Part shown: piece by piece, positions 8,949-63,386 of the stretch
Layout of the letters: each line of letters opens with the position of its first letter
How positions within the stretch are numbered: position 1 is the stretch's first letter
From: a virus
Direction: 5' to 3' (one strand)
Virus record (IMG/VR): IMGVR_UViG_3300010885_044017
Location: 87,914 to 151,913 of that record
Length of the DNA: 64,000 nt
Made by a program: the position numbers and the translations under genes
Notes under the pieces: generated by a model
What the model was told of the DNA's origin: nothing
The model's input: the letters and a program-made list of their open reading frames with translations, nothing else
Databases searched by the model: none

Positions 8949-8956
8949 TATTTATT
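8949..8956 (-). promoter_or_regulatory. Late promoter for gp6
   Basis: Read on the minus strand this is AATAAATA, one base from the T4 late consensus TATAAATA recognised by gp55. The predicted start of transcription is about 6 bases downstream, leaving a leader of about 16 bases before the gp6 ATG at 8927. Confidence 0.7.
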
Positions 8957-37916: not shown

Positions 37917-37923
37917 CTAAATA
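37917..37923 (+). promoter_or_regulatory. Late promoter for the fibre cluster
   Basis: CTAAATA, 21 bases before the ATG at 37945; same variant as before the portal gene. Confidence 0.55.
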
Positions 37924-55664: not shown

Positions 55665-56096
55665 TCAAACAACTTTTTCTAAAGTTTTAATCTTTTCAAT
55701 TACACTTGAAAACTTGAATGTACGCCATACTCCCGGATGTAAGGGTTTGGGATGATCCCGCAACTCCACCCAACAAAATCCACGATGCTCGTGATTTAAC
55801 ACCGGCACAAACTCTTCGTCCACTGTGATCATGTAGGTGTGATACTCAAAGTTTTTACTGTCGCTGGTGAACTTTTCAATTGGGATCAGTCTGGCGTCTT
55901 GGAATATTCCGCCCAGTTCTTCGGCGATTTCTCTAGCAAGTCCTTCAACCACAGTTTCACCTGCTTCAATTTTTCCGCCCACCAAGCCCCAAGAGCCGGC
56001 ATGTCGCCGCCCGTTGCGTAACAAAAAAAGATATCTGTGAGTGGTTCGGCAGTACACCAATGCACCAGCGCCTGTTTGTTGAGAATTGTTTACCAT
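55665..56096 (-). CDS. NUDIX hydrolase
   Basis: 143 residues with a complete Nudix box, GGKIEAGETVVEGLAREIAEELGG (read as G-x5-E-x7-REUxEExGU), at about residues 40-63, preceded by LFLLRNGRRHAGSWGLVG. The family hydrolyses nucleoside diphosphate derivatives, for example oxidised dNTPs, ADP-ribose or capped RNA; the substrate is not readable. Its stop is one base from the stop of the convergent upstream gene. A sigma70-like promoter (TAGACT-17-TATAAT) ends seven bases before the ATG, so the message would be leaderless. Different timing from the late genes around it is likely. Confidence 0.88.
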   Translation of the reverse strand: MVNNSQQTGAGALVYCRTTHRYLFLLRNGRRHAGSWGLVGGKIEAGETVVEGLAREIAEELGGIFQDARLIPIEKFTSDSKNFEYHTYMITVDEEFVPVLNHEHRGFCWVELRDHPKPLHPGVWRTFKFSSVIEKIKTLEKVV

Positions 56097-58910: not shown

Positions 58911-58939
58911 TTGACTGCTAAGTAAATTTAACGTATAAT
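58911..58939 (+). promoter_or_regulatory. Sigma70-like promoter, leaderless
   Basis: TTGACT-17-TATAAT, almost the perfect consensus. Transcription should begin at about 58946, which is the A of the ATG. Confidence 0.8.
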
Positions 58940-58945
58940 AACATT

Positions 58946-59203
58946 ATGGATTTAAACACTAAAAAACGCTTGGATGATACATTTTTTCAAATAATCCGTT
59001 TACCAATGGATGCAGAAAAGATACGCGATCTTAAAAAAATATGGAAAAACTGTAGCGAAACATGGGCAGACATGAGCAGAGAAGAAGTAAATTGTCGCAG
59101 ATTGGGCCGGAAAACCCCACATTATTTAGAACTAGAACTGCAAGTGGCAGAAGGCTTAGACCTGCTGGAACAGTACCTGACCTTTGCCACACTGTTGAGT
59201 TGA
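58946..59203 (+). CDS. Small conserved-type protein, unknown
   Basis: 85 residues, mainly helical and charged (MDLNTKKRLDDTFFQIIRL, then DAEKIRDLKKIWKNCSETWADMS, and a C-terminal LELELQVAEGLDLLEQYLTFA). No motif gives a function. Near-consensus sigma70 promoters precede both it and the next gene, so expression is probably early, unlike the neck genes on either side. It has no Shine-Dalgarno sequence, and the predicted transcript begins on its ATG. Confidence 0.65.
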   Translation: MDLNTKKRLDDTFFQIIRLPMDAEKIRDLKKIWKNCSETWADMSREEVNCRRLGRKTPHYLELELQVAEGLDLLEQYLTFATLLS

Positions 59204-60441: not shown

Positions 60442-60449
60442 TATAAATA
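60442..60449 (+). promoter_or_regulatory. Late promoter for gp13
   Basis: A perfect TATAAATA; the start of transcription near 60455 leaves about 16 bases before the gp13 ATG at 60471. A second TATAAT at 60452-60457 could also serve as a -10 element. Confidence 0.8.
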
Positions 60450-60470
60450 CTGTATAATCGGACCATTCCA

Positions 60471-61403
60471 ATGACACAGTATAGTACCCCGCAGACCACC
60501 CCAGAGATAACTGCCAACATAACTGCTTTTGGCAGTTTACCCACCAAGAGTCTTTTCGATGCCAACACTGGCACAGGGTCTGGCAGTATACAGTTTGACC
60601 CCAACACCTTGCCCACCGGCAATGCTCAACGTGCGGCCATTACCGACTACATTCGTGTTAGATTGGGTGACGGATTGATAGATGTAGAATTGGAAAAAGG
60701 CCACTACGAAATGGCCATCAATCAAGCCTTGCTTAAATATCGCCAACGTGCTGCCAATTCCACTGAAGAAAGTTTTGCTTTTTTAGATCTATTACCAGAA
60801 ACACAGGAATATATACTGCCCCGAGAAGTACAGGTGGTCAAAGCCGCTTATCGTCGTGGTATTGGGTCAGTTACAGGCACAACTGCCAGTCAATTTGAAC
60901 CATTTGCATCGGGATATTTAAACACGTATATGTTGCAGGCTGGACGTGTGGGCGGATTAACCAACTATGAGCTGTTTGTGGACTATCAAAAATTAGCCAT
61001 GAAGATGTTTGGTGGATTGTTGAATTATACATTCAATCCCACTACTAAAAAATTAACCATCATTCGTAAAATGCCCTACGGTTACGGTGGCAGTACCGGT
61101 GGGTCACAGGGTCAAAATCCTTTTGAAAGTGTGTTGTTGCACATATACAATACCAAGCCGGACCAAATGATACTAAACGACACCTACAGTTTTCCTTGGA
61201 TACAAGAATATGCCTACAGCTTTGCCAAACGTATTCTGGGACAGGCCTACAGTAAATTTTCGCAGATTGCAGGGCCACAAGGCGGCGCCAGTTTAAACGG
61301 TGCTGCAATGGTACAAGAAGCTCAGGCTGAAATGGAACGACTGGAATATGAAATTGTCAACTATGTTGACAATGGCATGCCCTTGACTTGGGTTATTGGC
61401 TAA
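60471..61403 (+). CDS. 13: Neck protein gp13 (head completion)
   Basis: 310 residues (T4: 309). The family pattern is clear: DYIRVRLGDGLIDVELEKGHYEMAINQAL (read in parts), YILPREVQVVKAAYRRGIGS, SGYLNTYMLQAGR, YNTKPDQMILND and the C-terminal AGPQGGASLNGAAMVQEA. It makes the head-proximal neck with gp14. The N-terminal 45 residues, rich in Thr, Asn and Gly, extend ahead of the core. Distinct from T4, gp13 is read on the opposite strand from gp14 and gp15, about 1.6 kb away. Confidence 0.94.
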   Translation: MTQYSTPQTTPEITANITAFGSLPTKSLFDANTGTGSGSIQFDPNTLPTGNAQRAAITDYIRVRLGDGLIDVELEKGHYEMAINQALLKYRQRAANSTEESFAFLDLLPETQEYILPREVQVVKAAYRRGIGSVTGTTASQFEPFASGYLNTYMLQAGRVGGLTNYELFVDYQKLAMKMFGGLLNYTFNPTTKKLTIIRKMPYGYGGSTGGSQGQNPFESVLLHIYNTKPDQMILNDTYSFPWIQEYAYSFAKRILGQAYSKFSQIAGPQGGASLNGAAMVQEAQAEMERLEYEIVNYVDNGMPLTWVIG

Positions 61404-61406
61404 TCA

Positions 61407-61892
61407 ATGCGTATCACTGAAATAACAACAGAATCTGTCGTAAATGAATTGGGCAATAGGCCCTATCCGTTTAAAATAGATCCCAATGGCTGGAAAGAAT
61501 ATAAAAGTGTCACCAGTCGAGATGGTAAAATCAACGTGGTTTTTGAGTGGAGGCCCGGCTCCGACAATGGCGCCATTGATGTCTCGTTTGAAGTCAACGG
61601 CACACAAGCCATTACCGGCGGTGGTGACGCTTTTAGAATCTTCAGCACAGTGGCACAGATAATACAGAAACGACTGCCCCCCATGATACGGCAACTTGAA
61701 CCCGGTGACGTCTGGTTTCACGCACATGATGAAGCCAGTCGTGTGAGTTTGTATGACAAATATGCAGTGAGATTTTTTAACCAACTGCTTGGCCCTGATT
61801 GGCAATTCAAGAGAAGTGTCAACCCCAAAAACCGAGACGTCATGTACCGATGGGAACGCAAATACAATGGTAACGACATTGATTTTGATTGA
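61407..61892 (+). CDS. Hypothetical protein, phage-conserved type
   Basis: 161 residues, starting three bases after the gp13 stop. It opens with RITEITTESVVNE, a start seen in many small proteins of such phages; the middle, NVVFEWRPGSDNGAIDVSFEVNG, is beta-type; the C-terminal DEASRVSLYDKYAVRFFNQLLG followed by RWERKYNG is helical. The function is unknown. Co-transcription with gp13 makes a virion or assembly role possible. No signal peptide or membrane segment is present. Confidence 0.65.
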   Translation: MRITEITTESVVNELGNRPYPFKIDPNGWKEYKSVTSRDGKINVVFEWRPGSDNGAIDVSFEVNGTQAITGGGDAFRIFSTVAQIIQKRLPPMIRQLEPGDVWFHAHDEASRVSLYDKYAVRFFNQLLGPDWQFKRSVNPKNRDVMYRWERKYNGNDIDFD

Positions 61893-61900
61893 TTTTTTTG

Positions 61901-61907
61901 CTAAATA
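61901..61907 (+). promoter_or_regulatory. Late promoter, leaderless type
   Basis: CTAAATA with the last base at 61907; six bases further is 61913, the A of the ATG of the next gene. Confidence 0.6.
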
Positions 61908-61912
61908 CTCAT

Positions 61913-62314
61913 ATGAAAATTAACGAAATTCTATTAGAAGATGCCGCTGGTGGTCCACCTAAAACACACGGCACATTTACCGATTTAGACGCTGACCAAG
62001 ATGCATCCTTACCGGGTGTTTGGGTACAACGACAGTTACGCAATACAGATCCCTACATGCAATACCGCTATGGACTGGCACTGGCAGCTGCTCGTGCCGA
62101 TGCAGCGGGCCATGTGGCATTTTCACAAGAAAGTCCTTGGGCAGAGAACTTGACCATTGTTGGATATACTCCGGAAGATGCAGAAGTAATTAGAATGGCA
62201 GACAAACTAATGGGCGTTCACGCCACACGCATTGCCGACGATGCCAGTAGAGAAGCAAAGGGAGTGAACACACAAAGCCCAATGCGACCACGTGGATCAA
62301 TCACCAAAAAATAA
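61913..62314 (+). CDS. Hypothetical protein, phage-conserved type
   Basis: 133 residues from ATG at 61913; an in-frame ATG at 61889 would start inside the late promoter and the previous gene, so the later one is preferred. It begins KINEILLEDAAGG, close to the start of the preceding protein, and continues YMQYRYGLALAAARADAAG, SPWAENLTIVGYTPEDAEVIRMADK and a Lys/Arg-rich tail. The VGYTPEDAEVIRMADK part is a pattern seen in small proteins of aquatic myoviruses of unknown role. No Shine-Dalgarno is present, consistent with a leaderless start. Confidence 0.65.
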   Translation: MKINEILLEDAAGGPPKTHGTFTDLDADQDASLPGVWVQRQLRNTDPYMQYRYGLALAAARADAAGHVAFSQESPWAENLTIVGYTPEDAEVIRMADKLMGVHATRIADDASREAKGVNTQSPMRPRGSITKK

Positions 62315-62315
62315 C

Positions 62316-62367
62316 TTGACTCGGCGTAACAAATATGTAATAATGCTCTTATATAGGAGCATTTTTT
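62316..62367 (+). promoter_or_regulatory. Sigma70-like promoter overlapped by an RBS-sequestering, terminator-like hairpin
   Basis: TTGACT (62316-62321), 16-base spacer, TAATAA (62338-62343), predicted start near 62350. A nine-base hairpin AATGCTCTT/AGGAGCATT (62342-62350 with 62355-62363) with an ATAT loop is followed by TTTT. The Shine-Dalgarno AGGAG is in its 3' arm. A transcript from this promoter would lack the 5' arm and be free to translate, whereas read-through from upstream would fold it. Confidence 0.65.
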
Positions 62368-63051
62368 ATGACTAAAAAATTAATTGGTGTTGTGGGATTA
62401 ATCTCAAGTGGCAAAGATACCATTGCTGATTATCTTTGTAATTTTCAAGGGTTTCGTCGAGAATCATTTGCCAACAGTTTGAAAGACGCTGTGAGCATGG
62501 TGTTTGGTTGGGATCGTACCATGTTGGAAGGGCGAACCAAACAAGCTCGCGAATGGCGCGAACAAGTAGATCCATGGTGGGCCGAACGTTTAAACATGCC
62601 CAATTTAACACCACGCTGGGTGTTGCAATACTGGGGTACAGAAGTTTGTCGTAGGGGTTTCAACGATGACATCTGGATTGCCAGCTTGGAAAACAAACTT
62701 CGTACAAGTCAAGATGACATTGTCATCAGCGATTGCAGATTCCCCAACGAAATTGCAACAATTAAATCTGCCGGTGGAACAGTGGTTCGTGTACGTCGCG
62801 GCGACGATCCTGTTTGGTATAGTATTGCTCAACGTGCCAACCAGGGTGACTCAATCGCACAGAGACAGTTGGCAGAGTTTAATGTACACATCAGTGAAAC
62901 TGCTTGGATTGGCACAGGTTTTGATCACACAATTGACAACAATGGAACCATTGACGAATTATATCAACAAATCAAAAATCTGGTACAAGTGGACTCTGGC
63001 GCCAAGGCAAGCGACTCCGCTGAACTTCCTGAGTACAATTCAAACATATAG
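62368..63051 (+). CDS. 1: Deoxynucleoside monophosphate kinase gp1
   Basis: 227 residues (T4 gp1: 241). The P-loop GLISSGKDT lies at residues 10-18, followed by FRRESFANSLKDAVSMVFGWDR, RWVLQYWGTEVCRRGF and the DDIVISDCRFPNEI segment typical of this dNMP kinase family. It phosphorylates dNMPs (and modified ones in T4) for phage DNA synthesis. It is preceded by a sigma70-like promoter combined with a hairpin, indicating early expression. Its 3' end overlaps by 80 bases, antisense, with the zinc-cluster gene on the minus strand. Confidence 0.93.
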   Translation: MTKKLIGVVGLISSGKDTIADYLCNFQGFRRESFANSLKDAVSMVFGWDRTMLEGRTKQAREWREQVDPWWAERLNMPNLTPRWVLQYWGTEVCRRGFNDDIWIASLENKLRTSQDDIVISDCRFPNEIATIKSAGGTVVRVRRGDDPVWYSIAQRANQGDSIAQRQLAEFNVHISETAWIGTGFDHTIDNNGTIDELYQQIKNLVQVDSGAKASDSAELPEYNSNI

Positions 63052-63322
63052 TCTTCAAGTTTAGCCAGTTGTTGTTTTTTAAGTTACCGTCAACATAAAA
63101 CACACCCAGTTGCTCTGGGTGTCGTGCTTTAAATCCACATTTCTCACATCGTTCTTTTTTACTGTATCCTGCTCGGTGCCATGCCGGCGGCTCCGGTTTG
63201 TATTTAATTCCTTTTCTCAAACAGGTATCACAGAATTTTCTGTAGTAGATTTTATTGTTCCGGTGAAAATTAACAGCCACTGGGCGTTGATTACAATGCG
63301 GGCACGTTTTACGGGGTAACAT
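62972..63322 (-). CDS. Zinc-cluster protein, HNH-like
   Basis: 116 residues from the ATG at 63322. This start is chosen because a perfect TATAAATA late promoter (63335-63328 on the minus strand) ends exactly six bases before it; an earlier ATG at 63370 would lie upstream of the promoter. Four Cys pairs (CPHC, CDTC, CEKC, CLNC) suggest two zinc sites. Between the last two pairs, FYVDGNLKNNNWLNLKTIC resembles the degenerate core of HNH-type proteins, though the usual first catalytic His is absent (YVDGN where VDHID-like sequence is expected). It may be a nuclease relative or a DNA-binding protein. The stop lies 80 bases inside the opposing dNMP kinase gene. Confidence 0.7.
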   Translation of the reverse strand: MLPRKTCPHCNQRPVAVNFHRNNKIYYRKFCDTCLRKGIKYKPEPPAWHRAGYSKKERCEKCGFKARHPEQLGVFYVDGNLKNNNWLNLKTICLNCTQEVQRSRLPWRQSPLVPDF

Positions 63323-63327
63323 GTAGT

Positions 63328-63335
63328 TATTTATA
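63328..63335 (-). promoter_or_regulatory. Late promoter, leaderless type
   Basis: Perfect TATAAATA on the minus strand; six bases beyond its last base is 63322, the first base of the ATG. Confidence 0.7.
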
Positions 63336-63386
63336 CCCTTGCCCTTTATTAAAGGGCAGTCAAACCGCATGAAAAATTACTTAATC

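Follow-up and report, generated by a model that had tools for sequence, protein, structure and literature searches.

The dNMP kinase (deoxynucleoside monophosphate kinase) gene of an uncultured phage is preceded by a promoter that overlaps a hairpin over the translation start. This arrangement very probably silences the translation of messages that read through from upstream, while the message from the gene's own promoter is translated; the kinase would then probably be made early and stay off on late messages. The gene was analyzed in a 64-kb stretch of DNA (here called the window) that forms the end of a virus record of 151,913 bases. The kinase (62368 to 63051, + strand) matched phrog_139 (E 9e-52) and Pfam PF21448 DNMK (4.9e-13). 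The upstream structural run begins with a gp13-like neck or head-tail adaptor gene (60471 to 61403, +; phrog_211, E 6e-29). Two small open reading frames (ORFs) occupy the neck-to-kinase interval at 61407 to 62314 (61407 to 61892 and 61913 to 62314, both +), for which phrog and Pfam family searches gave no match, and the tail sheath gene is the downstream neighbor of the kinase. An HNH endonuclease gene (phrog_2255; 62972 to 63370, −) overlaps the kinase 3′ end on the opposite strand, ahead of the tail sheath gene. The order neck-kinase-sheath is also found in cultured large phages, e.g., CBB, GAP32, 121Q, and PA5oct, and the neck gene is the immediate upstream neighbor of the kinase in 119 of 177 promoter-bearing relatives. 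A blastn search for close DNA relatives among cultured phages found none. Judged from its sequence, the kinase gene is located within a structural gene run yet carries its own host-type (sigma70-like) promoter. The promoter class of this uncultured phage was read from the sigma70 consensus.

The promoter scan identified a −35 hexamer TTGACT (62316 to 62321, +) and, 17 nt further on, an extended −10 TG-T-AATAAT (62336 to 62344, +; hexamer at 62339 to 62344), giving 10 of 12 matches with a TG ahead of the −10. The last three bases of the −10 form the beginning of the 5′ (anti-Shine-Dalgarno [anti-SD]) arm AATGCTCTT (62342 to 62350, +). This arm is followed by the loop ATAT (62351 to 62354, +) and the 3′ arm AGGAGCATT (62355 to 62363, +), which holds the SD sequence AGGAG (62355 to 62359), 8 nt upstream of the ATG at 62368. 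Behind the stem, TTTT (62364 to 62367, +; six T in the run altogether) could act as a weak terminator tail. A preliminary description of the locus had reported a perfect nine-base hairpin; the 9-bp stem (62342 to 62363) was confirmed, although it consists of 8 Watson-Crick pairs and one G-U pair (62349 with 62356). The same description had placed the transcription start at about 62350, after most of the 5′ arm. The usual position, the 7th base after the −10, corresponds to 62351, which is the first base of the loop, and therefore the whole 5′ arm lies upstream of the predicted start and stops directly ahead of it. Compared with a sister phage (L435), the kinase gene of the window shows 77% nucleotide and 79% protein identity over its coding sequence, whereas promoter and hairpin agree in 52 of 53 bases, with an unchanged 5′ arm. 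Rfam covariance models gave no match at E ≤ 1 between 61800 and 62600. The local fold of the window sequence alone was unremarkable (z = −1.3), and the case was therefore built on relatives.

Relatives were gathered as 80 loci by the kinase protein and as 160 further rows with two other kinases, and a DNA pattern scan, restricted to the 3′ arm plus start codon, contributed a further 86 stretches. The collection comprised 224 distinct kinase 5′ regions in total, in which some loci stem from the pattern scan and loci are partly related to one another. The kinase leaders caught by the pattern scan have a matching 5′ arm. A promoter was called in 182 regions, and the removal of 3 false calls inside an overlapping upstream gene left 179. 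Hexamers of the sigma70 type, spaced by 16 to 18 nt, were found at a conserved place: among 105 clustered relatives, 93% had a promoter with at least 9 of 12 matches in this position, compared to 1.2% of shuffles, with a spacing of 17 in 81 clusters and of 18 in 23. An ATG-anchored hairpin of −4 kcal/mol or lower was observed in 89% of about 180 distinct promoter-bearing kinases, compared to 17% of shuffles that were constrained to keep both hexamers and the SD; by this measure, about 15 promoter-bearing relatives lacked a good hairpin. Among the 36 regions called promoterless, two had a hairpin (L292 and L338), in both cases the AATGCTCC hairpin together with a near-miss promoter, and three more (L079, L103, and L111) were leaderless genes with a promoter just under the cutoff. 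The number of kinases truly devoid of a promoter is thus about 31, none of which had an ATG-anchored hairpin. Most promoterless kinases overlap a different upstream gene by ATGA and are therefore coupled to that gene. Upstream and leader segments paired more strongly with their own partners than with leaders swapped between clusters (−9.4 versus −6.4 kcal/mol; z = −14; 108 clusters). By these sequence comparisons, the kinase hairpin is no accident, its pairing going far beyond chance across 99 to 108 promoter clusters. The pattern did not extend to other sigma70-like promoters on the same contigs, where SD-bearing genes behind a promoter of this kind had hairpins no more commonly than shuffles (12.5% versus 9%; n = 32).

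The preliminary description had proposed conservation of both arms in relatives as a check; the pairing is conserved, with arm sequences that differ between relatives. The relatives contained 76 different 5′ arm sequences, falling into classes such as AATGCTC/GGAGCATT (the class of the window), AATGCCC/GGGCATT, AGCTC/GAGCT, and AATGTCC/GGACATT. In the class AGAGC/GCTCT, the SD is placed in the loop, and pairing of the SD itself is only partial in this SD-in-loop class (e.g., L060). The 5′ arm of the class CCCCTGTAA/TTACAGGGG starts beside the −35, with the −10 lying within an inner hairpin, and in one class the pairing partner of ATTATG, which includes the start codon, is the −10 TATAAT itself. 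In a leaderless group (L079, L100 to L103, L109, L111, L114, and L121), about six bases separate the −10 from the ATG and there is no SD; the 3′ arm of most members abuts or contains the AUG, e.g., TGATTTAGTTTA/TAAACTAAATCA in L101. Loops ranged from about 4 to more than 20 bases and arm placement varied between the −35 and the start region, while the 3′ arm was always tied to the SD or AUG. The tree of hairpin classes was noisy and was used only to conclude that the arm type changed many times. In three class alignments, 99%, 97%, and 100% of the cells were paired, with 13, 13, and 6 double changes, respectively; in alignment A3, the inner helix alone was counted, since gaps shift the arms of the outer helix there. 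The covariation score of the class alignments was reached by 0 of 500 shuffles.

A repeat that overlaps the −10 and start region occupies the usual place of an operator, and one could read it as a DNA site at which a repressor controls the kinase promoter. A common protein site would be expected to keep its sequence and spacing, in contrast to the 76 arms, variable loops, and variable arm positions observed here, and it would not account for a 3′ arm that is always tied to the SD or AUG. The strand bias of mispairs also speaks for RNA. With stems located by Watson-Crick pairing alone and a tolerance of two odd pairs at most, 33 G-U pairs but only 1 A-C pair were counted on the mRNA strand, where an A-C pair would correspond to G-U on the opposite strand. 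Part of this excess follows from the G-rich SD; nevertheless, it argues for pairing within the sense RNA and against a protein-binding palindrome. We regard an operator as extremely improbable.

The preliminary description had also noted a resemblance to a terminator, and the main role of the hairpin might be that of an intrinsic terminator, stopping the upstream structural transcript immediately ahead of the kinase start codon. Indeed, the stem is followed by TTTT, the hairpin was listed by a terminator scan, and relatives with the AATGC/AGC arm type, including those found by protein alone, keep at least six T at this place. Furthermore, in the cultured phages listed as CBB (L346), Hallingskeid (L348), GAP32 (L350), XbC2 (L352), and BF (L353), a strong terminator-like hairpin and U-run directly precede the kinase, and no obvious promoter follows the hairpin. 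The resemblance holds at best for the U-run subclass; however, a U-run is missing from most other promoter-bearing relatives, whose stems extend up to or into the AUG. Terminator anatomy is absent from the −35-arm and SD-in-loop classes, which keep the SD or AUG pairing, and the stem of the window contains only 3 G-C pairs among its 9. A G+C-rich stem plus U-run kept in relatives was thus not what we found, the U-run being confined to one arm subclass. Since it is missing in most other relatives, termination is not the shared function. We consider a chiefly terminating hairpin unlikely; terminator action may be at most secondary, within the U-run subclass that includes the window. In the Sinorhizobium phage Phosso (PV764938; L345:2920-3000), a predicted 17-bp hairpin with one bulge hides the SD of the dNMP kinase and has a weak promoter-like sequence in its 5′ half. 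Terminator-like or SD-hiding hairpins in cultured phages suggest that the need to separate the kinase from the neck transcript is wider than this clade.

Read-through RNA and the promoter's own RNA differed clearly in folding predictions. Of 164 hairpins, 127 had a 5′ arm that ended before the predicted +1, and in 152 at least 75% of the arm preceded it. Opening the region from SD to AUG required on average 9.85 kcal/mol in read-through RNA compared to 2.55 kcal/mol in the own RNA, a difference seen in 98 of 99 clusters, whereas 30 other promoters on the same contigs, used as a control, showed costs of 4.89 and 3.27 kcal/mol, respectively (P = 2e-12). For the window, the corresponding values were 10.35 and 2.99 kcal/mol. 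The SD of the window was unpaired with a probability of 0.07 in read-through RNA, which agrees with the earlier claim that the hairpin buries AGGAG, and of 0.57 in the own RNA, where accessibility was retained for every start from 62347 to 62354. Because the starts are predicted ones, a start at or before about 62342 would bring the arm into the kinase's own transcript, in which the hairpin could serve as a 5′ stability or thermosensor element. This is very improbable: the 5′ arm of most relatives includes bases of the −10 or −35, which are absent from the promoter's own transcript, and the predicted start of leaderless relatives falls on the AUG.

We propose instead that the promoter DNA at the same time encodes an anti-SD or anti-start arm. 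RNA from the kinase promoter would start at about 62351, a position that we infer from the −10, and would lack the 5′ arm and be translated. RNA from upstream, mainly from the late promoters of the neck gene, would carry the arm, so that the hairpin would hide AGGAG or, in some relatives, the AUG from ribosomes, with a repression whose size we likewise infer. Production of kinase protein would depend solely on its own promoter and probably be early, with no renewed synthesis from the abundant late structural messages. The preliminary description had contrasted an own transcript without the arm with a read-through transcript that buries the SD. This contrast fits the observed geometry, which is conserved independently in more than 100 relatives, including those with different arms, arm positions, and leaderless starts.

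The source of the read-through was assessed from promoter motifs. A T4-like late-promoter motif TATAAATACT (60442 to 60451, +) is located before the neck gene and is the presumed source of late read-through, and a second late-type motif TAAATACT (61902 to 61909, +) precedes the ORF at 61913 to 62314. The 8-mers ATAAATAC and TAAATACT are enriched 27- and 20-fold before genes in this genome, typically 22 to 29 bases upstream of large structural genes, and this late-type motif resembles the T4 late promoter TATAAATA. Across the window, the T4-like motif TATAAATACTnnATA precedes structural genes at 8955 and 18018 (−) and at 37918, 40838, 49987, 54881, 60442, and 61902 (+). Of 106 relatives, 95 have the late motif ahead of the neck gene and 1 has it ahead of the kinase. 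Late transcription is therefore expected to continue into the kinase gene. A search of the virus record for a sigma70 region-2 protein (Pfam Sigma70_r2) found none. The earlier suggestion of late read-through from gp13 and its followers is thus supported, if indirectly, by the motifs at 60442 and 61902 and by their recurrence before the neck gene. At 59200, a sigma70-like promoter that drives the gene upstream of the neck gene also points toward the kinase, and the same kind of promoter precedes the pre-neck gene in many relatives, so that read-through need not be only late and some of it could be early. It is therefore conceivable, although we doubt it, that the silencing is real but serves to insulate kinase dosage from all transcripts arriving from upstream, whether early or late, rather than as an early-to-late switch. 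The late-type motifs directly before the neck gene and the ORF at 61913 make late read-through the main candidate, and we retain the silencing of late messages as the preferred reading.

Promoter-embedded hairpins that hide a ribosome-binding site are known from the T4 genes e, soc, 49, and I-TevI, from segB, and from Aeh1 mobE (PMC3014915, PMC2988022). In these cases, RNA initiated upstream hides the SD and/or AUG, and a promoter in the 5′ arm gives a short transcript that escapes (PMC3014915, PMC2988022); the gene e structure lowers synthesis about 100-fold (PMC3014915). The inner promoter of the T4-type cases is a phage late promoter: “they are all late genes,” present on early or middle transcripts (PMC2988022). 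The kinase resembles the gene e type in that folding and covariation place its SD and/or AUG in a paired state in upstream-initiated RNA and in that its predicted start follows the 5′ arm, in the proportions given above. It differs in its inner promoter, which is of the host type TTGAC-17-TATAAT and not the late promoter TATAAATA, in its role in nucleotide metabolism, and in read-through that comes from structural genes with late-type promoters. Given the shared mode of action but different inner promoter, we treat the kinase as a variant and do not count it as a member. The preliminary description had invoked gene e logic with the opposite timing; the hairpin design is shared and the promoter is of the host type, whereas the reversal itself is only probable. 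In the T4 e order, an early or middle transcript is silenced and the product is late, and the motifs at the kinase locus point the other way. The timing is thus probably reversed relative to T4 gene e.

The IS10 transposase is reportedly protected from outside transcription (Davis, Simons and Kleckner, 1985). IS10 read-through RNA has an extra upstream arm that pairs over the gene start and is missing from the own transcript, as predicted for the kinase; however, IS10 is a transposon end guarding against neighbors at random insertion sites, while the kinase has a fixed place in the phage gene order. In galE and lacZ fused to upstream operons, translation is lowered by pairing between the start region and promoter/operator sequence included in the longer RNA. 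These effects were seen in fusions of host operons, unlike the natural phage locus, and we know of no comparable covariation record for galE or lacZ. Our literature search, which was short on subscription papers, found no report of such a promoter-hairpin arrangement for a dNMP kinase. We lean, with some caution, toward a switch of reversed gene e type spread over a broad phage clade, in which an early metabolic gene in a late cluster is kept off on late messages by a promoter-encoded anti-start arm. In this broader reading, the solution was re-invented with many arms and in many places, pairing the −35 region with the SD, the −10 with the AUG, or a leaderless spacer arm over the AUG.

One and the same DNA stretch would thereby be the promoter of a gene and a translational off-switch for any transcript arriving from elsewhere, a rule for which the comparative evidence is unusually strong. 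If true, it represents the mirror case of the late genes of T4 on early messages and offers a sequence-level way to spot genes that the messages of their neighbors must not express. It also warns that a phage gene in a late operon need not be expressed late.

Related sequences were observed at other genes. An unrelated 239-kb contig (L340) carries the same AATGCTCC...GGAGCATTTTTTATG module before a NUDIX hydrolase gene that follows a virion structural gene, with the AATGCTCCTATATAGGAGCATTTTTTATG module located at L340:6846-6874. The NUDIX gene of the window (55665 to 56096, −) was considered as a second example and rejected, since its relatives (L355 to L434) are mostly overlapped by an upstream virion gene and have no promoter; in the window phage and in L355 and L356, a promoter is located directly before the gene. 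Two apparently leaderless genes of the window, the ORF at 58946 to 59203 (58911 to 58948, +) and the NUDIX gene at 56096 to 55665 (56131 to 56094, −), each have the sequence TATAAT-N3-ATTATGG, whose −10 ends six bases upstream of the ATG and has the potential to pair with it.
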